Part shown: positions 27,337 to 37,236 of the stretch, one piece after another
How positions within the stretch are numbered: position 1 is the stretch's first letter
Layout of the letters: the number at the start of each line of letters is the position of its first letter
NCBI RefSeq assembly: GCF_026130545.1
Contig: NZ_JAMOIM010000002.1
Location: 310,001 to 374,000, forward strand
Origin: Lichenifustis flavocetrariae
GTDB taxonomy: Bacteria > Pseudomonadota > Alphaproteobacteria > Rhizobiales > Beijerinckiaceae
Length of the DNA stretch: 64,000 bases
Direction of reading: 5' to 3'
The notes under the pieces: generated by a model
Told to the model about the DNA's origin: nothing
Databases searched by the model: none
Seen by the model: the letters and a program-made list of their open reading frames with translations, nothing else
Made by a program: the position numbers and the translations under genes

Positions 27337-28554
27337 GTGCCCCGCGCCATTCTCATCGTTCTCGATTCCGTCGGCTGCGGCGCGGCGGAGGATGCCGCGG
27401 ACTACGGTGATGTCGGCGCCGATACGCTCGGCCACATCGCCGAGGCTTGCGCGAGAGGCGACGCGGCCAGGGAGGGAGTGCGATCGGGTCCGATCGTCCT
27501 CCCCTGGCTCGATCGGCTGGGGCTCGGTTCGGCGTGCCTCGCCTCGATCGGACGGGTCCCACCAGGACTGCACGCCGCGCCACGCGACACCGGCTGGGGC
27601 TACGGTGTCGAGCGTTCCGCCGGCAAGGACACGCCCTCGGGCCATTGGGAGCTGGCCGGCACGCCCGTCCCGTTCGCCTGGGGGTATTTCCCGCAGTCCG
27701 AACCCTGCTTCCCGCAAGATCTGGTCACCGCGCTCGTCAGCGAAGGCAAGTTGCCAGGCATCTTGGGCAACCGCCACGCCTCCGGCACCAGCATCATCGA
27801 GGAGCTCGGCGACGAGCACCTCCGCACCGGCAAGCCGATCTGCTACACCTCGATCGATTCCGTGTTCCAGATCGCGGCGCACGAGGAGAGTTTTGGGCTG
27901 ACCCGGCTCTACGATCTTTGCCGGATCGCCCGCCGGCTCTGCGACCCCTTGAATATCGGCCGCGTGATCGCGCGCCCCTTCGTGGGCCATTCGCATGCGG
28001 ATTTCCGACGCACGGCAAACCGCAAGGATTTCGCGGTGCCGCCACCGTCAGGCCATCTCTTGGCGCGCGCCGCTCAGGCCGGCCGCGCGGTCGTCAGCAT
28101 CGGCAAGATCGGCGACATCTTCGCCCATGTCGACACAGGCACGGAACGGAAGGGCGCCAGCAACGATGCCAATCTCGACCTTGTGCTCGAAACCCTGCCG
28201 GACCTCGCCGACGGCGGGCTGATCGTGGCCAATCTGGTCGATTTCGACACCGAGTTCGGCCATCGCCGTGATGTCGCGGGCTACGCGGCCTGCCTCGAAG
28301 CCTTCGACCGGCGCGTGCCGGAGATCATCGAGCGGTTGCGCCCCGACGATCTCCTGATCCTCGTCGCCGACCACGGGAACGATCCGACCTTTCGCGGCAA
28401 CGATCACACCCGCGAGCACGTGCCGATCCTCGCGCACTGCGCTGCGCGCGATGGGATGCGGATCGGACGGCGCGGGAGCTTGGCCGATGTCGGCGCCACG
28501 ATCGCGCGCCACCTCGGCCTCTCGCCGACGCCTGCCGGAGAGGCCTGGTTCTGA
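27337..28554 (+). CDS. deoB: Phosphopentomutase
   Basis: A 405-residue alkaline-phosphatase-fold metalloenzyme, the normal length of DeoB. It interconverts ribose-1-phosphate (or deoxyribose-1-phosphate) and the 5-phosphates. Seen features: N-terminal [17 protein letters not shown] with a metal Asp, [12 protein letters not shown] near residue 95 with the phosphorylated Thr, and [24 protein letters not shown] near 345-370 with metal Asp and His. Start is GTG at 27337, preceded by AGGA. It would complete the nucleoside breakdown path encoded near 46-55 kb, though it sits 19 kb away. Confidence 0.94.
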
Positions 28555-28591
28555 CGCTTGGCTCGCGGCGACCGGCAAGCCATCGACAACC

Positions 28592-28999
28592 TCACCAGCC
28601 GTCGCCGGCCCGGCGCCAGTCGCGCTCCGGGCAAGGCTGCCGGTGAAAACCGCGCTCGCCGTCATAGCCACCGCGATCCCATCCGTCGCGGACGACGCGA
28701 TAGCGCGGCGCCTCGCGATAGACCGGGCGGCTGGGCTCATCGAAGCCGGCCTCGTCATAGCCGGGGTCCACGAAGCGCTGCCGGTAGATCGGGCGTGGGG
28801 CCTGCTCGACGACCGTGTAATTGTCGTCGTACTCGGCCGAATGGGCCAGCGTCGAGCCGGCTGCGGCGCCCAACAGCGCGCCGATGATGAGAGCGGCGTT
28901 CTGCCCGTTGCGGGCCTCGGCGGCGTGCGGGACCAGCAGACCCAGCGACGTAACGGCAGCGAGAAGAAGAGCGGGCGCTTTGCGAGTGACGAAAGCCAT
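28592..28999 (-). CDS. Small secreted protein with glycine-zipper segment
   Basis: A 135-residue protein. The signal peptide (residues 1-28, cleavage near AEA) is followed by a short glycine-zipper helix ALIIGALLGAAAGS near residues 35-48, then a hydrophilic Tyr/Arg/Asp/Pro-rich tail with repeated Y-R-E and D-G motifs and no Cys until near the end. Such proteins are common in Hyphomicrobiales and probably associate with the envelope. Function unknown. It is convergent with deoB and divergent from the AmpG gene. Confidence 0.65.
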   Translation of the reverse strand: MAFVTRKAPALLLAAVTSLGLLVPHAAEARNGQNAALIIGALLGAAAGSTLAHSAEYDDNYTVVEQAPRPIYRQRFVDPGYDEAGFDEPSRPVYREAPRYRVVRDGWDRGGYDGERGFHRQPCPERDWRRAGDGW

Positions 29000-29204
29000 G
29001 GCTTTCACCGTCCTGAGCGGTTCCGCACCTCCCGGTGGGAGGATCATTCGGAACCATGGGGAGATCATGCCGCCGGCGGGCTGAATGCACCGGGAACGCC
29101 GCACTTATCGGCCGTTCATCTGCCCTCGATGCAACCCAGGGCTTGCCAAGCCGCTCCTCCCACCCGCGAATGGGGCCGACGTTTCGCCCTGATCACGAGC
29201 CCGC

Positions 29205-30521
29205 ATGCAAAGCCAGACCCTGCCGACCGGCGCCGACAGCCTCTCGCCCCTTCGCGCGCTGTTCGCCGACCGCCGCCTCGGCACCATGGTGGGGCTCGGC
29301 TTCTCGTCCGGCATCCCGTTCCTGCTCGTCTACATCACGCAATCGGCCTGGCTCAGCGAGGCCAAGGTGCCGCTCGGCACGCTGGGCCTGATGAGCGAGA
29401 TGACGCTCGCCTACAAGTTCAAGTTCCTGTGGGCGCCCTTTCTCGACCGCTACGATCCGCCGGTCTTCGGCCGGCTGTTGGGACGCCGGCGCGGCTGGAT
29501 CGTGGTGGCGCAGATCGGCATCGCGCTCACGCTCGCCGGCATCGCCTTCGGCGATCCCGCCCATTGGCTCACCTGGACGGTCCTGTTCTCGCTCGCATTG
29601 GGCTTCGCGGGCGCGACCCAGGATGTGGTCATCGACGGCTGGCGCATCACGGTCGCGCCCGTCGAGCGGCAGGCCCTCATGTCCTCCTGGTCGGAGGTGG
29701 GGTGGCGTATCGGCAATCTCGTGGCCGGCGCGGGCGCGCTCTATCTCGCCGATGCGTTCGGCTGGCGCGCCGCCTATCTCTGCATGGCTTTCTGCATGCT
29801 CCCCGGCTTGATCGCCGCCCTGATGGCGCCGGAACCGCAATCCGACACGGCCGCGCAGCCGCCGCCCTCGAGCTTCGTGGACACGATCGTGGCGCCGATC
29901 CGCGATCTGATCGGGCGGCTCGGGCCTCTGGCCCTCCCGACCCTGCTGCTCGTCGCCGGCTTCCGCATGCCGGGCTATATTTCGAACGCCATGGCGGTGC
30001 CGCTGTTCAAGAGCCTGCACTATTCGAATTCGGACATCGCCACGGTCACGAAGCTCTTCGGCTTCCCGGTCGCGCTCGCGGGCACATTCTTCGCAAGTTG
30101 GGTGGTCAAGCGCATCGGGCTGATGCGCAGCCTTCTCTGCGGCACGGTCTTCGCCTCGGCGTCGCACCTCAGCCTCGCCTATCTGGCCGTACACGGCGAC
30201 CATGGCGGCGGCGAGTTCTGGCTCTTCGCCACCAGCGTCAGCATCGACGATTTCGCCTATTCGTTCGCGTCGATCATCCTCATCACCTACATGTCGGCGC
30301 TGGCCACGACCGAACATGCCGCGACCCAATATGCCCTGCTGACCTCGCTCTGCGCCATGCCGGGCAGCCTGCTGGCCGGCGCTTCGGGCTTCCTGATCGA
30401 GCGGATGAGCTTCGAATGGTTCTTCACCATGACGGCGCTGATCGGCGCCCCGGTGGCGCTCCTGTGCTGGTGGGTGTCGCGGCGGCAGGGAGGTGTCGCG
30501 CCGGGGCAGAAGGGTGACTGA
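29205..30521 (+). CDS. ampG: AmpG-family MFS transporter
   Basis: A 438-residue major facilitator with about 12 membrane segments. Its N-terminus LGFSSGIPFLLVYITQSAWLSEAKV and the following YKFKFLWAPFLDRY near residue 68-82 are the AmpG signature; the A-type motif analogue and QDVVIDGWRI near 145 also match. AmpG imports anhydromuropeptides for cell-wall recycling and in some species feeds beta-lactamase induction. No ampR or ampC gene is nearby. The family also holds other solute transporters, so the exact substrate is inferred. Confidence 0.85.
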   Translation: MQSQTLPTGADSLSPLRALFADRRLGTMVGLGFSSGIPFLLVYITQSAWLSEAKVPLGTLGLMSEMTLAYKFKFLWAPFLDRYDPPVFGRLLGRRRGWIVVAQIGIALTLAGIAFGDPAHWLTWTVLFSLALGFAGATQDVVIDGWRITVAPVERQALMSSWSEVGWRIGNLVAGAGALYLADAFGWRAAYLCMAFCMLPGLIAALMAPEPQSDTAAQPPPSSFVDTIVAPIRDLIGRLGPLALPTLLLVAGFRMPGYISNAMAVPLFKSLHYSNSDIATVTKLFGFPVALAGTFFASWVVKRIGLMRSLLCGTVFASASHLSLAYLAVHGDHGGGEFWLFATSVSIDDFAYSFASIILITYMSALATTEHAATQYALLTSLCAMPGSLLAGASGFLIERMSFEWFFTMTALIGAPVALLCWWVSRRQGGVAPGQKGD

Positions 30522-30670
30522 GTGACGGCAGCCTCCGCTCTCCTCGGCTGACACACCTCACCTCACCAGGCTGACGCTACTCCGGCTTTCACAAGTTTAA
30601 TCTTGCTCCCAGAACCCGATGCAGCGTCGAATGATTGTATAGACGAGGGGATTCAAGAGGAGGCGTTCCT

Positions 30671-31063
30671 ATGAATTACAATATTGTTACATTCAGCTCG
30701 GCGTTGCTTCTCCTGGCTGGAGCCGCCACCGCGAATGCGGCGACGAGCCCCGCCAAGGCGGCGGACGCCGGCCCCGTCATCCAAAACAGCCAGGCGATGG
30801 CGGCGGCCGACCAAATGCATCCGATGAACATGCGGCAGCAGATCCAGGATCAACTCACCAAGAACGGCTATTCGGCCGTGACCGTGATGCCATCCTCCTT
30901 CTTCGTCCGCGCCAAGGACAAGATGGGCAATCCGGTCGCGATGGTGATCGGCCCGGACAGTTTTACCGAGGTGACGGACGTGGTGAAGAAAACAGCCTCG
31001 GCGACGCCCGCCCCGAAAGCCGGTGGAACCGACGACCCGACGCCGGTTGCCGCGCAGAAGTAA
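30671..31063 (+). CDS. Small secreted protein of unknown function
   Basis: A 130-residue protein with a signal peptide (hydrophobic FSSALLLLAGAATANA to about residue 23). The body holds one conserved-looking block, QIQDQLTKNGYSAVTVMPSSFFVRAKDKMGNPVAMVI near residues 58-95, which resembles short PepSY-like beta-hairpin modules found in alphaproteobacterial periplasmic proteins. The tail is Ala/Pro/Thr-rich. GAGGAGG lies before the ATG. It is followed by two strong hairpins. Confidence 0.7.
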   Translation: MNYNIVTFSSALLLLAGAATANAATSPAKAADAGPVIQNSQAMAAADQMHPMNMRQQIQDQLTKNGYSAVTVMPSSFFVRAKDKMGNPVAMVIGPDSFTEVTDVVKKTASATPAPKAGGTDDPTPVAAQK

Positions 31064-31080
31064 CGCAACCCCGATCGATC

Positions 31081-31112
31081 GCAAACGGCCCGGCCTCGAC
31101 CGGGCCGTTTGC
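31081..31112 (+). terminator. Perfect 13-base hairpin after the secreted-protein gene
   Basis: A 13-base GC-rich stem (GCAAACGGCCCGG and its exact complement) with a 6-base loop lies 17 bases after the stop at 31063. The stem carries an A-rich left and T-rich right end, so on the plus strand it can act as a terminator, although the T run is only three bases. Confidence 0.75.
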
Positions 31113-31129
31113 GCATGTCCACACCCAGA

Positions 31130-31161
31130 AGCAAGGTCGGCTCCGATGGGCCGACCTTGCT
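31130..31161 (-). terminator. Perfect 12-base hairpin between convergent genes
   Basis: A 12-base stem (AGCAAGGTCGGC and its complement) with an 8-base loop lies 7 bases past the stop of the minus-strand gene at 31169 and is followed on the plus strand by TTTG. It probably terminates one or both convergent transcripts; together with the hairpin at 31081 it forms a tandem pair. Confidence 0.7.
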
Positions 31162-31168
31162 TTGTTGG

Positions 31169-31438
31169 TTACCGGTAGTGGCAGCGGCCGTAGCGACCAC
31201 GATACATGCGGGGCGGACAACCGCGCGGCGCGCCGGTCATCATGGCGCGAATACTGCCGCGCGGGCCGCGATTGAGGCGGCAGCCGCCGTAGGGACCCCG
31301 GTGCGCGCCGAACCCGCAGCCTGCGCGCGCCAGGATCACCGGGCTGTCCTGGGCCAGCGGCGCGGCCGGCATGGCCTCGGCGCCGCCTATCGCGAACAGC
31401 ATCGCGCCCGCCGCGAGGACCAAGCTGGTGATTTTCAT
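31169..31438 (-). CDS. GCG_CRPN-type small secreted peptide
   Basis: An 89-residue protein with a signal peptide (residues 1-22, MKITSLVLAAGAMLFAIGGAEA). The mature part contains the GCGFGAHRGPYGGCRLN block, a variant of the GCG...CRPN prefix found in a group of small Arg/Gly/Cys-rich alphaproteobacterial secreted proteins, then a second Cys pair (RGCPPRMYRGRYGRCHYR). The function of the family is unknown. The strongly basic mature peptide may bind envelope polymers or nucleic acids. Confidence 0.75.
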   Translation of the reverse strand: MKITSLVLAAGAMLFAIGGAEAMPAAPLAQDSPVILARAGCGFGAHRGPYGGCRLNRGPRGSIRAMMTGAPRGCPPRMYRGRYGRCHYR

Positions 31439-31514
31439 CGTTGCTCTCCCTTGGTGAATATGGCCCTGCGTCGGGCCATCATGCGCAGGCTAGGACGCGG
31501 AAGATGAAGCGGCG

Positions 31515-32624
31515 ATGAAGCGGGCGGAGGCCGCGGCGATGCGAAGTCGCTGGGCATCGGCGCCGCGCCGTGTCATGCACGGCAGCGTGACAGATCACCC
31601 TCCCCCGGTTTCGCCGCACCCGCTTGCCAGCCTGGGGTGGTCCGACTTCTTCGAGCATCAGCGCGCGCCCGGCGACGCGGGTTTCGTGCCGCGCCGGATC
31701 GCCGAGGTTCACCGCGCCCGCCTGACCGGCCTCTCCGACGCCGGCCCGGTGCGGCTGACGATCGCGGCCAATACCAACACCGGGGACTTCGCGGTGGGCG
31801 ACTGGGTGCTGGTCGACCCTCACACCGAAACGCTGCACCGCCGCCTGCAGCGCCGGACGGTGCTGGAGCGTCACGTCGAGAACAGCCGCGTCCCGCAACT
31901 CGCCGCCGCCAATGTGGACACGCTGTTCATCGTCACCTCCTGCAACGCCGATTTCAACCCGGCGCGGCTCGAACGCTATCTGGCCCTGGCGAACCAGGGC
32001 GGCGCCGCCTCGGTCATCGTGCTGACCAAGGCGGACGACACGAATGAGGCGGACAGCTATCGACGGCAGGCCGCCGCGCTGCAACGCGATCTTCCGGTCC
32101 TGATGCTCGATCCGCGCGCCCGCGCTTCAGTCGCGACCCTCGCGCCCTGGTGCGGTTTCGGACAGACGGTGGCGATGGTCGGCTCCTCCGGGGTCGGCAA
32201 ATCGACGCTCGTGAACACGCTGGCCGGCCCCGACCAGGAGGCGCCGCAACAGACCGGCGCGATCCGCGAACACGATGCCAAGGGACGCCACACCACGACC
32301 GCCCGCTCCCTGCACGCCATCGCGGGCGGCGGCTGGGTGATCGACACGCCCGGCATGCGCACGCTGCACGTGGGCGACGCCGCGGAGGGGATCGGCACGC
32401 TCTTCGCCGAGATCACCGAACTCGCCCCCCTGTGCCGCTTCAGCGATTGCACCCACGCCCACGAACCCGGCTGCGCCGTCCAGGCCGCCGTCAAAGCCGG
32501 CACCCTCGACCCCGCCCGCCTCGCCCGCTGGCGCACCCTCTTCGACGAGAACAAGGACAACACGCCGGTGCTGGTCGGGCCGAGGGGGAATAGGACGTTT
32601 GCGGGGCGGCCGCGGAGGCGGTGA
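31515..32624 (+). CDS. rsgA: Ribosome small-subunit-dependent GTPase A
   Basis: A 369-residue circularly permuted GTPase that assists 30S subunit maturation. An OB-fold precedes the GTPase part (AVGDWVLVDPHTETLHRRLQRR near 95). G4-like VLTKADD near 175 comes before the P-loop GSSGVGKSTLVN near 222 and the G3-like IDTPGMR near 277, showing the permutation. The C-terminal zinc site CRFSDCTHAHEPGC is near residue 310-325. The start may be ATG 31515 or a GTG at 31587; the conserved part begins after both. Confidence 0.9.
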   Translation: MKRAEAAAMRSRWASAPRRVMHGSVTDHPPPVSPHPLASLGWSDFFEHQRAPGDAGFVPRRIAEVHRARLTGLSDAGPVRLTIAANTNTGDFAVGDWVLVDPHTETLHRRLQRRTVLERHVENSRVPQLAAANVDTLFIVTSCNADFNPARLERYLALANQGGAASVIVLTKADDTNEADSYRRQAAALQRDLPVLMLDPRARASVATLAPWCGFGQTVAMVGSSGVGKSTLVNTLAGPDQEAPQQTGAIREHDAKGRHTTTARSLHAIAGGGWVIDTPGMRTLHVGDAAEGIGTLFAEITELAPLCRFSDCTHAHEPGCAVQAAVKAGTLDPARLARWRTLFDENKDNTPVLVGPRGNRTFAGRPRRR

Positions 32625-33213
32625 GCCACGGACCAGCCTGGGTCGCGGCGCAACCGGACAGCGGGAGTAATTCACCGGGCCATTGTTGCAGGCGGCCATC
32701 CTTGCGCGGGCCCGCCGCGGTCGGTATCCTTGACCTCATTTCTAGAGGGCCTGCCGTGCCGCTCACTTTAGCCAAAAATTCTGTTAGCAGAACCCTGAGC
32801 CCTTCCGTGTTGGTCAATCGGGCCCATCCGAGAACGGTTGCCATTCACGCGTTCCAGAGCGTCTCCCAAGGGTCCAGGAGCCCGGTTACCATCATCGGCG
32901 GCGACGGGTGTCGATCCATCCGCCCGAATAAACCGAGTTAGGACCCGACCTTCTGCCAGACTGTCTAACATCCGTGCGCGAGAACGTCTTCTACGGCTGC
33001 TCTACAGCATTGTTGGGGCCAGCACGCAGACGCACGGGTGACCACTGCAGCGGCGCCTCATCCGAAGAGAATGGCTCCTGGGACCGCCACCAGCCCCTCG
33101 GTATCAATGTCGTTTACGTGCCATTCGCCAGCGGTCGCCAGTGTAGAATTTAGTGACGTGATGCAAAAAAGAATGTACGTAGGCTCGTCAAAACCGCTCA
33201 CTCAATCGAAGCT
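32625..33213. other. Non-coding left arm of the AT-richer island
   Basis: About 590 bases with no recognisable gene. Short frames exist on both strands but none has conserved-looking composition. Base composition falls from the high GC of rsgA toward the lower GC of the three genes that follow. A TAGAAT hexamer at 33144-33149 could be a -10 element for those genes, but no good -35 was seen. No tRNA, integrase remnant or flanking direct repeat was found. Confidence 0.5.
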
Positions 33214-33918
33214 ATGTCTCTCGAACGAAATATGGAACATGTCGAGGAGCAAGGAGCATCTGTCGTTTTGGCAGGCAACTTCAATCCAGCCATCTTTAAT
33301 CCTGACTGGCTAGTTCGCCAGGAAGTCGTCTCCTCGGCAGAACTAGATGAAGGGGGCGTGAACGTCATACATGCTGAAGTTGCCCAATTTAAAGTTGGCT
33401 CTCTTCGGTTTGAGATACTGATTGATCGATTCACGGTACACGCTCTTTCGGAGCCATTCGTTAGGGTTGCAGACGTTATCGCGGATATCTTTGCGAAGGC
33501 GCTACCGCACACTCCCATCACCGCGATGGGCATAAACTACTTCGCCCACTTCCGTGTTTTGAGCCGCCAGCAACAGACTGCTTTCGGCAGAACGCTTGCA
33601 CCAATCCAGCCATGGGGCGACTGGGGCAGCACGCTGGAAAGCGATATTTCAGAGCAGGTTGGGGGACTAACAAGCCTGTCGATGCAACAAGTTTCTCCTC
33701 CAGACCGCGCGTCCGGCCACATAATGGTAACTGTACAGCCATCCGCGCACATCCCTGCAGGGCAAGGTGTTTTCTTTCAGCACAATGATCACTTCTCGAT
33801 TGCTAAGAACGAATCCAGCATCGATTTCCCTGGCCTTTGCTTAAAACAATTAACTCCCTCGTTGCAGAGAGCGCGATCCGTTTTGTCTCATCTTATTTCA
33901 GTTGCTAGAGGCTTGTAA
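33214..33918 (+). CDS. Unrecognised protein, gene 1 of the AT-richer island
   Basis: A 234-residue soluble protein without signal or membrane segments. It looks beta-rich, with ASVVLAGNFNPAIFNP near residue 15, a central RFEILIDRFTVHALSEPF near 65-82 and MGINYFAHFRVLSR near 105-118, then SGHIMVTVQPSAHIPAG near 168-184. The layout faintly recalls TIGR04255-type proteins but no firm family is recognised. Composition is clearly lower in GC than the flanking genes. It starts the three-gene unit, and its TAA shares one base with the next ATG (TAATG). No clear ribosome site precedes it. Confidence 0.7.
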   Translation: MSLERNMEHVEEQGASVVLAGNFNPAIFNPDWLVRQEVVSSAELDEGGVNVIHAEVAQFKVGSLRFEILIDRFTVHALSEPFVRVADVIADIFAKALPHTPITAMGINYFAHFRVLSRQQQTAFGRTLAPIQPWGDWGSTLESDISEQVGGLTSLSMQQVSPPDRASGHIMVTVQPSAHIPAGQGVFFQHNDHFSIAKNESSIDFPGLCLKQLTPSLQRARSVLSHLISVARGL

Positions 33919-34508
33919 TGCCCACGGCTGCGCTTCGAGAAATAGTGCCAGAGACGGTACGGGCTAACAAGTCAAGCTACGGTTTCGTTTCTCATGAAGT
34001 GAGCATTGACCGGGATTTAAGAGTTGTCGACCGCGCTGCTAAGCGCTTTACCCTGCAACGACATCCCGAGTTTCAGCCTGAGCTGTTTACAGGGGCTCGC
34101 AAAAATGAGGAGATCCTTTTTCACGTCGAAGGCTTTTTCAAGAGATCAGAAATCACGGGCATATCGGTGAACACCCTACAGGAGTGGCAGGGCTGCGTCG
34201 AAGGCATAGAAGACAGTCGCTTCAATGCTCGAATCGTTGATCTGACTCGACCGTCAACAGACGCCGAGTTCACAACCATACCGTTCAAGATCGTCGACAA
34301 GGTTGACCGGCATAAAATCCAACGTGGTGCTCTGTTTCATCTCATAATCGGCTACACGCGAGAAAAAGGTGGAACTTACTCACGCAAGCCAATCATTTAC
34401 TTCCGCAAATATGCTCCCGAATCGACGAGAATTGGTGCAAAGGCAGCCTCTCTTTTGAGTAGTTTACGTGACGCTTCCCGCATCAAAACCAGGCCTGCAA
34501 GAGATTGA
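33918..34508 (+). CDS. Unrecognised protein, gene 2 of the AT-richer island
   Basis: A 196-residue soluble basic protein. Visible segments include EILFHVEGFFKRSEITGISVNTLQEWQG near residues 62-90 and IQRGALFHLIIGYTREKGG near 138-156, which read as beta strands and turns of a small beta-barrel-like domain; this is inference. No motif of a known enzyme is seen. Sample lines in this gene are near 45 percent GC, against near 68 percent in the gene at 36 kb. It overlaps both neighbours, by 1 base with gene 1 and about 41 bases with gene 3. Confidence 0.7.
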   Translation: MPTAALREIVPETVRANKSSYGFVSHEVSIDRDLRVVDRAAKRFTLQRHPEFQPELFTGARKNEEILFHVEGFFKRSEITGISVNTLQEWQGCVEGIEDSRFNARIVDLTRPSTDAEFTTIPFKIVDKVDRHKIQRGALFHLIIGYTREKGGTYSRKPIIYFRKYAPESTRIGAKAASLLSSLRDASRIKTRPARD

Positions 34509-35556
34509 GGTATCGATATTTAGCCGTGGATATGGCGAGTCGATCTGTATTCACGTCGGACAAGGCAAGTGGCTGATTATTGACAGCTTGCTTACTAGCA
34601 GCGGCCAGCCTGTAGCGCTGGAGTATTTAATTTCACTCGGCTGCGATCTGCAAAGTGACGTCGTGGCTATTCTGATTACTCATTGGCATGATGATCATAT
34701 TGGAGGCGCAGCCTCACTCATCGCACAGTGCTCCTCTGCAATAATCGCGTTATCGGGAGTTCTATTGGAAGACGAGTTCATTACGTTACTACAGCGGGCA
34801 GACCCGCCCTCTACGAGCACTATTTCAAGCGGCATCGATGAACTTGTGCAAGTGCTTAGTTTGATTAAGCACAGAGACTCTATGTTTTGCTGGCATAATC
34901 AAATTATTGCTGAGGATCGATCAACTTTTCCATTTAGATTCGAGTCATTATCACCGAGTAGTGGAGACTTTGTTGATTTCATGGAATCTATCCGAAATTA
35001 TGTCTTGTCTGATGAGCCCGGGCGACGCATTATTTCGCCACCCCGTAATGACGCATCAGTCGCAGCAGTCGTCGAAATCCAGGCAGACAAGCTACTGTTC
35101 GGGGCAGACTTGGAAACAAGCAAGTTGAGTACCGGCTGGGATGCGCTTAACCGAGCGGCGTGGCGTAACAGAGGTCAAGCTTGCTTCTTCAAAATTCCTC
35201 ATCACGGATCCGTAACCGGTCATCACCCTTTGACGTGGACAGACCTGTTGCTCAGTGACGTCACTTCGGGACTGACGCCTTGGAGTAGAGGTCGCAAACT
35301 TCCCTCCAATACAGATGTGGACAGAATACTACGCTATACCTCAAACGCGCATATAGCTTCGCGCGTCAGGGTTGGAAAAAGCAAAAAGCGTGATCAAAGG
35401 GTGGAGCAAACGCTTACCAAATTTGGCATCCAGGTTGAAGGAGGTGACCAGACGTTAGGCCATTTACGTTTTCGTAAATTGCTTACTTCCAAGTGGCAAG
35501 TTGAGTACGGCGGTGATAGTTCGAAGCTGTCGCATATGATCCCACCTGGAGCCTGA
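34468..35556 (+). CDS. ComEC/Rec2-like metallo-beta-lactamase-fold hydrolase, gene 3 of the island
   Basis: A 362-residue soluble MBL-fold protein. The metal motif HWHDDH is at residues 72-77, the following Asn-Asp of NDASVAA is at 194-195, the bridging Asp of LLFGADLE at 214 and the His pair of FKIPHHGS at 245-246. This set and spacing are those of the nuclease-like C-terminal domain of ComEC/Rec2, but no competence membrane domain is present. Start is GTG at 34468, overlapping gene 2. It probably cleaves a phosphodiester or nucleotide substrate. Stand-alone proteins of this class occur in mobile and defence contexts. Confidence 0.85.
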   Translation: MTLPASKPGLQEIEVSIFSRGYGESICIHVGQGKWLIIDSLLTSSGQPVALEYLISLGCDLQSDVVAILITHWHDDHIGGAASLIAQCSSAIIALSGVLLEDEFITLLQRADPPSTSTISSGIDELVQVLSLIKHRDSMFCWHNQIIAEDRSTFPFRFESLSPSSGDFVDFMESIRNYVLSDEPGRRIISPPRNDASVAAVVEIQADKLLFGADLETSKLSTGWDALNRAAWRNRGQACFFKIPHHGSVTGHHPLTWTDLLLSDVTSGLTPWSRGRKLPSNTDVDRILRYTSNAHIASRVRVGKSKKRDQRVEQTLTKFGIQVEGGDQTLGHLRFRKLLTSKWQVEYGGDSSKLSHMIPPGA

Positions 35557-35625
35557 GTAGCCGCTAGACAGATTTGCATGTCCTCTGAGCGAATCGGCGC
35601 GCGATGAGACAGCTGGAAAACGTGT

Positions 35626-37236
35626 TTAAGCCGCCACATCCACCCGTTCCGCCCCCGCATCCCCCAATTCCTTCTTCTGCGCCGCATAGAACGACGCATT
35701 GTGCTCCCCCCGCAGCGCCTCGCGGGTGAATTGGATGAGGTGGTGGCAGACGAAGCCCATGTTGTAGATGGCCTCGATCTGGCCCTTCTTCAGCGCGTGC
35801 CAGGCCGAGCGCCAGAAGACGCCGCGGTAGTCGGATTTGACGCCGATCTGCCAGATGATGTTGGCGCCCATGAAGAGGCCGCGACGCAGGTTCGCGCGGG
35901 TCAGCTTGCCCTTGGCCGGGGTCTTGATGCGGTTGCCGTAGGTCACGTCCATCTGGGTGCGGAAGCGGCTGAAGATGTTTTCCGGGCTGTAGGCATGCGC
36001 GATGGCGCGGCGCCAGCTCGCCACCACGGCATCGTGCGGGCGCAGGAATTTGACGTTCGATTCGAGCTTGGGGTCGTCGATCAGCCGGTCGGCCTTGGCG
36101 AGCCGGTCCCACAGGGGCGTCTTGGGCAGCGCCTGCAGGATGTTGATGGTGAGCACCGGCACGGCCGAGCGGTCGATGAATTCGATGAGGCGCTGCTCCG
36201 ATTCGTCGGATTCGGAATCGAGCCCCAGGATGATGCCGGAGGTCACCTCCAGGCCGTAGCTGTTCAGCGTGTTGAGCGCCTCGAACATCGGCACGGCATT
36301 GTTGTGGTCCTTGGCGATGGCCTTCAGCGCATCGAGTTCCGGCGTCTCGATGCCGACGAAGACCGTGAAGAAGCCCGCCTGCTTCATCAGCTCCAGGATC
36401 TCGGGCTGCTTCGCCATGTTGAGCGTCGCCTCGCAGGCGAATTGCAGCGGGTAGTCGTGCTTCTTCTGCCATTCCACCAGATGCGGCAGCATCTCCTTCG
36501 TGGCCTTGCGGTTGGCGATGAAATTGTCGTCGACGAAATAGATCACGGCCGGGTGCGCCGGCTGCGAGATGAAGGCGTCGAGCTCCGCCAGCAGTTGCTC
36601 GGGCGTCTTCAGCCGCGCCTGCCGGCCATAGAGGGCCGGAATGTCGCAAAACTCGCACCGGTAGGGGCAGCCGGAACTGAACTGCAGCGAGCCGAGCAGG
36701 TATTTCTTCAGCGGCAGCTGATCATAGGCCGGCAGCGGAAAGTCGGAGAGCGGCATGCGCTCGACGGTGGTGAGCACCACCTGGGCGGCCGGCGGCGTGA
36801 GGTCGGCATCGAGGATGCGGATCAGCTGGTCGGTGGCGTCGCCGATCTCGCCCGAATGCAGGTAATCGAACTCGGGGTATTTTTCCGGCGCGCCCGAGGC
36901 CGAGGAGCCGCCGATACACGTCACCTTGCCGAAGCGCTTGGCCTTCTCGTGAATGACGTGGATCTGCTTTTCCTGGATGTGCATGCCGGAGACGAAGACC
37001 GCATCGGCCCATTGATAATCCTCGTCGCTGGCCGGCCGGAGGTTCTCGTCGATGAAGCGAACGTCCCACTTCTCCGGCAGATAGGCCGCGATGACGAGCA
37101 GCCCCTGCGGGGGCATGAAGGCCTTGACGCCCGGCATCAGCGGATAAGCGTGGGAGAAGGTGCCGAAGGAGGGGGTGTAGTGCGGGAAGACGCACAGAAT
37201 GCGCCGGACATTGGAAACTTCAACGGTAGAACGCAC
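35626..37236 (-). CDS. hpnP: B12-binding radical SAM protein, HpnP-like (hopanoid C-2 methylase candidate)
   Basis: A 536-residue protein: N-terminal cobalamin-binding domain (about residues 10-140, including [16 protein letters not shown] and [13 protein letters not shown]), radical SAM domain with the cluster motif CPYRCEFC near residue 190, and a C-terminal DUF4070-like region. HpnP methylates hopanoids at C-2 in several Hyphomicrobiales. The N-terminal and cluster regions fit HpnP closely, but related B12 radical SAM methylases exist and no other hopanoid gene is in the window. It lies at the right edge of the AT-richer island yet has normal GC content. Confidence 0.65.

Follow-up and report, generated by a model that had tools for sequence, protein, structure and literature searches.

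What function is served by three overlapping genes that are hardly ever split, have been traced, going by record titles, to 18 phyla, and include two for which Pfam, NCBIfam (June 2026) and PADLOC offer no family? The genes, g1, g2 and g3 (together the trio), lie in a stretch of 64,000 nucleotides from Lichenifustis flavocetrariae that was analysed as a whole (the window; contig NZ_JAMOIM010000002.1, positions 310,001 to 374,000). g3 encodes a hydrolase of the metallo-β-lactamase (MBL) fold, and g1 and g2 are predicted to encode a TBP-like saddle and an OB-like barrel, respectively. A preliminary description of the window had proposed that g1 and g2 recognise a target or nucleic acid that g3 cuts, the three forming an undescribed defence or DNA-processing module. 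Here we find that the three genes are inherited as one unit, which probably serves in defence or in conflict between mobile elements.

The three genes are inherited as one unit

Scans with g3 proteins already known to sit in a trio returned at least 146 relatives from a collection of species genomes, the best 80 of which were analysed further, and 31 loci from viral contigs. With iterated profiles, g1, g2 and g3 were called in this order at 104 of these 111 g3-selected loci, a figure that describes this g3 clade because of the trio seeds and the choice of the best 80. Five of the exceptions are ended by a contig end, one (L128) has no detectable g1 and one (L050) is another MBL protein. The preliminary description had treated the genes as a single unit, a view to be given up if homologues of g3 had only unrelated neighbours; the conserved order bears the unit out. 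When g1 was searched against 398 genomes from the phylum of the window, five matched, the window's own and four others, each with g2 and g3 alongside; among viral contigs, a g1 search returned two loci. The genes are tightly packed, with a median spacing of −4 bases at both junctions over 102 loci (starts chosen by script).

The joint inheritance is also seen in the pairwise distances between sequences. Of the 108 loci with g1 and g3 called (L016–L130), 15 near-duplicate, truncated or frameshifted ones were left out, and the remaining 93 together with the window gave sets of 94 sequences per gene. Distances correlated at 0.83 (g1–g2), 0.87 (g1–g3) and 0.86 (g2–g3); none of 2,000 shuffles was as high, and none exceeded 0.20.

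Several loci show unusual arrangements. In a clostridial bin (L128:1-1250), g2 and g3 are present and g1 is undetected in the 1.25 kb upstream, and L050:5989-6102 is a distant MBL protein on a 248-kb viral contig that carries neither g1 nor g2. In an alphaproteobacterial bin (L068:1252-3027), about 1.3 kb separate g1 from the g2 domain, which lies at the end of a single open frame of some 590 codons; g2 may here be fused to another protein or carry a large N-terminal extension. At L081 and L085 (g1) and L088 (g3), a gene is split over frames, as in decaying copies or assembly errors.

g3 probably encodes a nuclease

The g3 protein carries an HxHxDH motif at residues 72–77 (H72, H74, D76, H77), followed by D214 and H245/H246. 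All seven residues are kept in 99–100% of the 94 g3 sequences, as are D39, E125, P163, N194, W224, K242 and P279. Pfam matches on the window's g3 comprise two families, Lactamase_B and Lactamase_B_2, and no competence, channel or membrane family, in agreement with the preliminary description of a full MBL metal set without a membrane part. The top-scoring solved proteins are ComEC chains, and two PADLOC models match, LmuA (8.4e-13) and RTasMBL (1.7e-11). The median isoelectric point (pI) of g3 is 7.8, not acidic. We consider g3 to be probably a nuclease. A reading of g3 itself as a ComEC competence protein was ruled out by the lack of a channel domain match.

g1 and g2 have predicted folds and no family of assigned function

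An AlphaFold2 model of g1 built from 76 rows (predicted local distance difference test, pLDDT, 94.2) resembles the two-repeat saddle of TBP. Its first half runs strand, short helices, four strands, helix, in agreement with the five-stranded TBP domain described in PMC10688271 (papers named by PMC number are cited here for the parts of them that were available); the second half runs strand, helices, three strands, long helix. g1 carries the motif G-x-F-N-P-x-x-F-x-P-x-W. Foldseek matches the model to TBP chain 1vol_B (expectation value, E, 1.9e-3; TMt 0.39), and in a library of viral structures the best match is an unnamed protein (BFVD A0A515MGR4, E 1.1e-9), with giant-virus early-transcription-factor proteins among the further matches. 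The unnamed viral protein has 202 residues, matches with a TMq of 0.58 and is 14% identical to g1. By sequence, searches of Pfam, NCBIfam and PADLOC return nothing for the window's g1 at E ≤ 1. No family in these three collections matches more than one of its relatives, and PADLOC gives nothing for them at E ≤ 0.1. In PHROGs, the function-less family phrog_36401 matches 47 of 77 g1 rows, the window's g1 not among them. A search for solved relatives by sequence gave three chance-level matches (0.25 or worse).

The g2 model is disordered from residue 1 to about 80, forms a barrel in OB order at about residues 84–162 (pLDDT mostly above 90) and ends in a helix. Its top Foldseek matches in the PDB (E 0.008 or worse) are mainly OB-containing proteins: an exosome subunit, lysyl-tRNA synthetase (LysRS), a mitochondrial single-stranded DNA-binding protein (SSB) and Stn1-Ten1. 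The same three collections give no match to the window's g2 at E ≤ 1 either, and no family matches more than two of 75 relatives: at E ≤ 0.1 the scattered matches concern one member each, apart from DUF7239 with two, the best being Rep_Org_C (1.8e-4, one of 75). No solved relative of g2 was found by sequence. The window's own g2 is basic (pI 9.8), unlike the acidic median of its family. Structure prediction, which the preliminary description had called for, gave folds often used on nucleic acids for g1 and g2. We hold the chances that g1 and g2 bind nucleic acid to be even.

The trio travels on mobile elements and stands near defence-type genes

The trio lies on plasmids of Adhaeribacter swui, with annotated recombinases near, and of Pantoea agglomerans, with annotated recombinases on both sides. 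It also occurs on predicted viral contigs and in prophages. In Lichenibacterium minor, a tyrosine integrase follows directly downstream on the opposite strand. Among 5,426 complete Escherichia coli genomes, 14 carry the trio at ≥ 99% identity and three more match at 67–70% over 78, 20 and 20% of the query. In all four E. coli regions examined (ECOR29, E8, MEI148-20EC, SX45), the trio sits among prophage genes, with holin on one side and antiterminator Q on the other, and opposite in orientation to these phage genes, with a guanine-cytosine (GC) content in ECOR29 of 33% against 53–54% around it. This placement is a cargo position. Together with its sporadic distribution across phyla, these contexts support the mobility of the trio suggested at the outset. 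Among GenBank phages, neither the window's g3 nor that of L034 has a match. RefSeq names the E. coli g1 protein WP_000143147.1 “anti-phage protein” in two of the 14 genomes, a label of untraced origin; the remaining 12 records read “hypothetical protein” for both small genes.

In these E. coli prophages, the holin–Q interval (L150:12001-14401, L151, L152, L153) may commonly house defence genes as cargo.

A defence-island context had also been named as something to look for. We scanned 147 of 180 selected neighbour proteins of the larger loci, based on script gene calls and with long proteins cut to 450 residues. PADLOC matches include several helicase-type families and DUF499, three each (among the 25 listed of 376 families), and Pfam matches include ResIII (4), DruA (2) and Methylase_S (2; among the 25 listed of 147 families). 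DUF499 genes lie upstream of g1 on the same strand, with the matched part 1.2–6.4 kb away, in six of 45 genomes, compared to about 0.11 expected by chance within 9 kb (28 DUF499 genes in 204.5 Mb); even if only four cases are counted, the Poisson chance is 6e-6 in this post hoc test. The test covered 45 of the 80 genome-contig loci, with the contigs of L100 and L113 assigned by coordinates and frame length. Defence-like contexts are found at several loci, and other neighbours are ordinary.

Two further loci were read by eye. At L018, the trio lies between open reading frames resembling a restriction-type endonuclease and a Dam-like methylase. On the viral contig IMGVR_UViG_2921114623_000001 (L019/L026), it lies near QueC/QueE-like 7-deazaguanine genes and a VRR-NUC-like nuclease.

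Sporadic distribution suggests horizontal spread

Within the window's phylum the trio is found in four of 397 other genomes (about 1%), and among other relatives in one of 59. The 18 phyla were counted on a g3 tree of 69 rows built by a quick method, and single phylum cases may be binning errors because the labels come from the titles of mostly metagenome bins and because the archaeal case (L102) is a contig of 4.4 kb. Phylum labels change 24 times on this tree (minimum 17; shuffled mean 37.9). Starred clades of mixed phyla, for example one that joins Gemmatimonadota and an alphaproteobacterium and one in which a Thermodesulfobacteriota row lies inside Chloroflexota, suggest horizontal transfer between phyla.

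Of five congeners searched, one, G002 (inferred to be L. minor, NZ_QYBB01000001.1, L103), has a trio, on a contig and at a site different from the window's and with 33% (g1) and 34% (g3) identity to it. On the tree, a Hyphomonadaceae sequence and a second alphaproteobacterial one share a group with the window's g3 (support 84). The g3 of L. minor is placed elsewhere (support 88) and is not nearest to the window's. Because both the g3 groups and the sites differ, separate acquisition fits the two trios.

The locus in L. flavocetrariae

The coordinates of the locus are collected in Table 1. The overlaps of one base (g1/g2) and 41 bases (g2/g3) agree exactly with those first described for three same-strand genes, and the long non-coding left arm downstream of rsgA was likewise confirmed. 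The AT-richer island of the preliminary description is real (GC content 49.8% in the trio, 63.6% in the whole window), but it begins at about 33.0 kb instead of 32,640, because the left arm (32,640–33,213) has 59.2%. In windows of 400 bases, GC content is 45–54% from about 33.0 to 35.6 kb, 59–72% at 28.0–32.8 kb and 61–66% at 35.8–37.6 kb.

Table 1. Features of the trio locus, in positions of the window
Feature	Positions	Strand	Size and start	Description
rsgA-like GTPase gene	31515..32624	+		left flank; name from the preliminary description
Non-coding left arm	32625..33213	none	589 bases	between the rsgA stop (32624) and g1
g1	33214..33918	+	234 residues, ATG	predicted TBP-like two-repeat alpha/beta saddle
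g2	33918..34508	+	196 residues, ATG	predicted disordered N-terminal ~80 residues, OB-like barrel, C-terminal helix
g3	34468..35556	+	362 residues, GTG	ComEC-type MBL-fold hydrolase, predicted nuclease
B12-binding radical-SAM-type gene	35626..37236	−		right flank; called hpnP in the preliminary description only

The left arm presumably holds the operon promoter. An RNA gene was considered for this region and set aside, there being no Rfam match at gathering scores. The long arm is no constant part of the module, because many other loci have a predicted neighbour only 100–500 bases upstream of g1. Around the trio, three weak two-copy repeat families and no att-like pair were found.

Comparing the rsgA–hpnP interval between relatives had been proposed as a check, with the same interval at normal composition in all of them counting against the proposed module. 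The interval is not common to the congeners. The rsgA gene of G002 and of G003 stands without a trio beside it, as does the radical-SAM gene of G004. Absence can thus be established at each flank but not at the exact junction, because no congener has both flank genes at E ≤ 1e-30; no clean empty site was found among the congeners.

In G004 (L140), the match to 27.3–28.4 kb of the window ends about 0.8 kb from the radical-SAM match. Compared with the window region 28,430–35,677, G004 lacks about 7 kb, rsgA and the trio among them; the stretch is variable within the genus.

A model for the function of the trio and its alternatives

We propose, with somewhat better than even confidence, that the trio is a mobile defence module against phages or other invaders in which g1 and g2 act as sensors and control DNA cleavage by g3. 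In this model, the soluble ComEC-like MBL nuclease g3 would be the effector, and the g1 saddle together with g2, its barrel and its disordered tail, would form the sensing and gating part, the three proteins acting as a complex. g1/g2 would keep g3 inactive or deliver it and, on binding a trigger that arises in infection, either a nucleic-acid structure or a protein of the phage, would release or direct the nuclease. The DNA that g3 then degrades would be the invader's alone or the host's as well. A role in holding or delivering g3 is assigned to g1/g2 because the constant partners here are a saddle and an OB protein, not a protease, and control by binding is likelier than control by proteolysis because the operon has no protease gene.

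Several observations weigh against this reading. On the side of g1, the second repeat is one strand short of the first, AdoMetDC (1.6e-4) and a Rep protein (5.7e-4) rank above TBP among the Foldseek PDB matches, and the best matches have low TM-scores (0.23–0.39) obtained with a single model. Run on 12 trio-carrying genomes, PF00352 picks up archaeal TBP genes and misses g1 throughout, hhalign of g1 against two archaeal TBPs is negative (a comparison of low power), and no sequence link connects the two halves of g1. Because these sequence tests for TBP and for internal repeats are negative, “TBP-like” is limited to the modelled fold, and the likeness could be convergence or over-reading. For g2, no structural match in the PDB reaches E 0.001. 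Both small proteins are mostly acidic (median pI 5.4), a mild argument against plain DNA binders. As to context, ordinary neighbours occur too, such as a TRAP transporter set found twice, the DUF499 test was made after the PADLOC tally had been seen, and its six loci are not all independent, two of them (L057 and L095) being from Entotheonella. The “anti-phage protein” label is traceable to no experiment: a literature search with five accessions gave no source, and the passages retrieved from Vassallo 2022 (PMC9519451) and from DefensePredictor (PMC13092281), supplements not covered, describe no such trio. Lastly, the order count is confined to one g3 clade, some viral loci are near-copies of one another, and the clustering of phylum labels (24 changes against 37.9) indicates that within-phylum inheritance also contributes.

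Of the alternatives, the one that survives best, if still unlikely, is that the trio is cargo in the competition between phages or plasmids, serving its carrier by superinfection exclusion or element maintenance through an attack on rival DNA. The opposite-strand placement between holin and Q in the four E. coli regions, the predicted viral contigs and the two plasmids with recombinases nearby all fit such a role, but 80 loci come from genome contigs, of which some may lie in unrecognised prophages, and some stand beside chromosomal defence-type genes; the difference from the defence model is mostly one of who benefits.

An RNA-targeting or TOTE-like module, in which saddle and OB protein bind RNA or an RNA–DNA hybrid, with g3 as an RNase or as a hydrolase that is no nuclease, ranks next, with a small chance of being right. 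The exosome subunit and LysRS stand beside SSB among the top matches of g2, and TOTE systems unite TPR, OB and TBP with an effector (PMC12458937). However, in Hachiman and AVAST it is DNA that the activated MBL nucleases cleave (PMC12799240), the trio has no TPR gene, and PF00352 does not recognise g1.

Ranking after it, and improbable, is DNA processing, repair or uptake, with nuclease, OB protein and saddle trimming or recombining the element's own DNA. The ComEC relatives of g3 and the SSB-like matches of g2 would suit this function, yet none of the 25 commonest Pfam families of the 147 neighbours is a competence, recombinase or replication family, and the trio is missing from most genomes and carried by unlike elements. 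An ordinary accessory operon of unrelated metabolic function, on mobile elements by chance, is very improbable: enzymes of the MBL superfamily are diverse, the fold alone leaves the substrate open and part of the neighbours are metabolic, but the trio is sporadic in 18 phyla and recurs on viral contigs and beside defence-type genes.

The natural copies in E. coli, such as that of ECOR29, make the proposed defence module directly testable.

Comparison with known systems

No description of the trio was found in a literature search that excluded subscription papers, supplements and preprints outside PMC. The word “undescribed” in the preliminary description is weakened because RefSeq names an E. 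coli g1 “anti-phage protein”; others may have implicated the trio earlier.

ComEC/Rec2 proteins provide the best solved relatives of g3, which differs from them in its length of 362 residues and in having no channel or competence domain match. A close comparison is with the protease-gated MBL nucleases (Hachiman, AVAST type 1/Avs1a, Lamassu, DRT and Canu; PMC12799240), of which those of Hachiman and AVAST are gated DNases freed by a partner protease. With these systems the trio shares a ComEC-like MBL protein as the likely effector, defence-type contexts and co-inherited partners, and the Canu prototype also has three genes. In contrast, the trio has predicted TBP-fold and OB-fold partners and no adjacent trypsin-like or caspase protease. 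No protease family matches g1, g2 or their relatives in Pfam or PADLOC, one of 74 g2 relatives matches an NCBIfam aminopeptidase model at chance level (0.045), and none of the 25 most frequent Pfam families of the neighbours is a protease (147 proteins, 147 families matched). g3 also falls far under the NCBIfam cut-offs for Avs1a (28 of 420 bits) and for 6A-MBL (17.9 of 220 bits), an enzyme for which the literature search found no describing paper. As for DRT with RTasMBL, Pfam gives no reverse transcriptase family on g1, g2 or their relatives, and the match of PADLOC RTasSLATT to one g2 relative (0.015) is at chance level.

TOTE/TALON systems (PMC12458937) resemble the trio in combining a TBP-fold protein, for which g1 is a candidate by its modelled fold, an OB protein, which g2 represents as a predicted fold only, and an effector. 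They differ in that the trio has no TPR gene, g1 is not PF00352 and the effector is an MBL hydrolase; no TPR family matches the window's g1–g3 or the relatives of g1 and g2, the wider loci being without a scan aimed at TPR. The trio is thus close in kind to both the protease-gated MBL nucleases and TOTE, with membership shown for neither.

A more distant analogy is offered by eukaryotic CPSF73/CPSF100 and IntS11/IntS9 (PMC10688271), in which an MBL-type nuclease works with C-terminal TBP-type domains that are, in contrast to g1, fused to the nuclease. For the TBP-type domains of CPSF and Integrator, oligonucleotide binding went undetected and peptide binding has been proposed (PMC10688271), and the saddle of g1 may therefore bind protein, so that DNA binding should not be assumed. 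Should the defence model be true, the trio would show how control of an MBL nuclease can do without a protease, and it would add the TBP-type fold as a sensor or scaffold. Tentatively, and with more doubt than confidence, it might then stand for a widespread class of prokaryotic immunity whose sensors, a TBP-fold saddle together with an OB protein, detect infection-specific nucleic acid and switch an MBL nuclease directly, with no need of a protease, an ATPase or a nucleotide signal. By analogy, and just as tentatively, such a class could be the prokaryotic counterpart of the way in which eukaryotes combine TBP-type domains with MBL nucleases.

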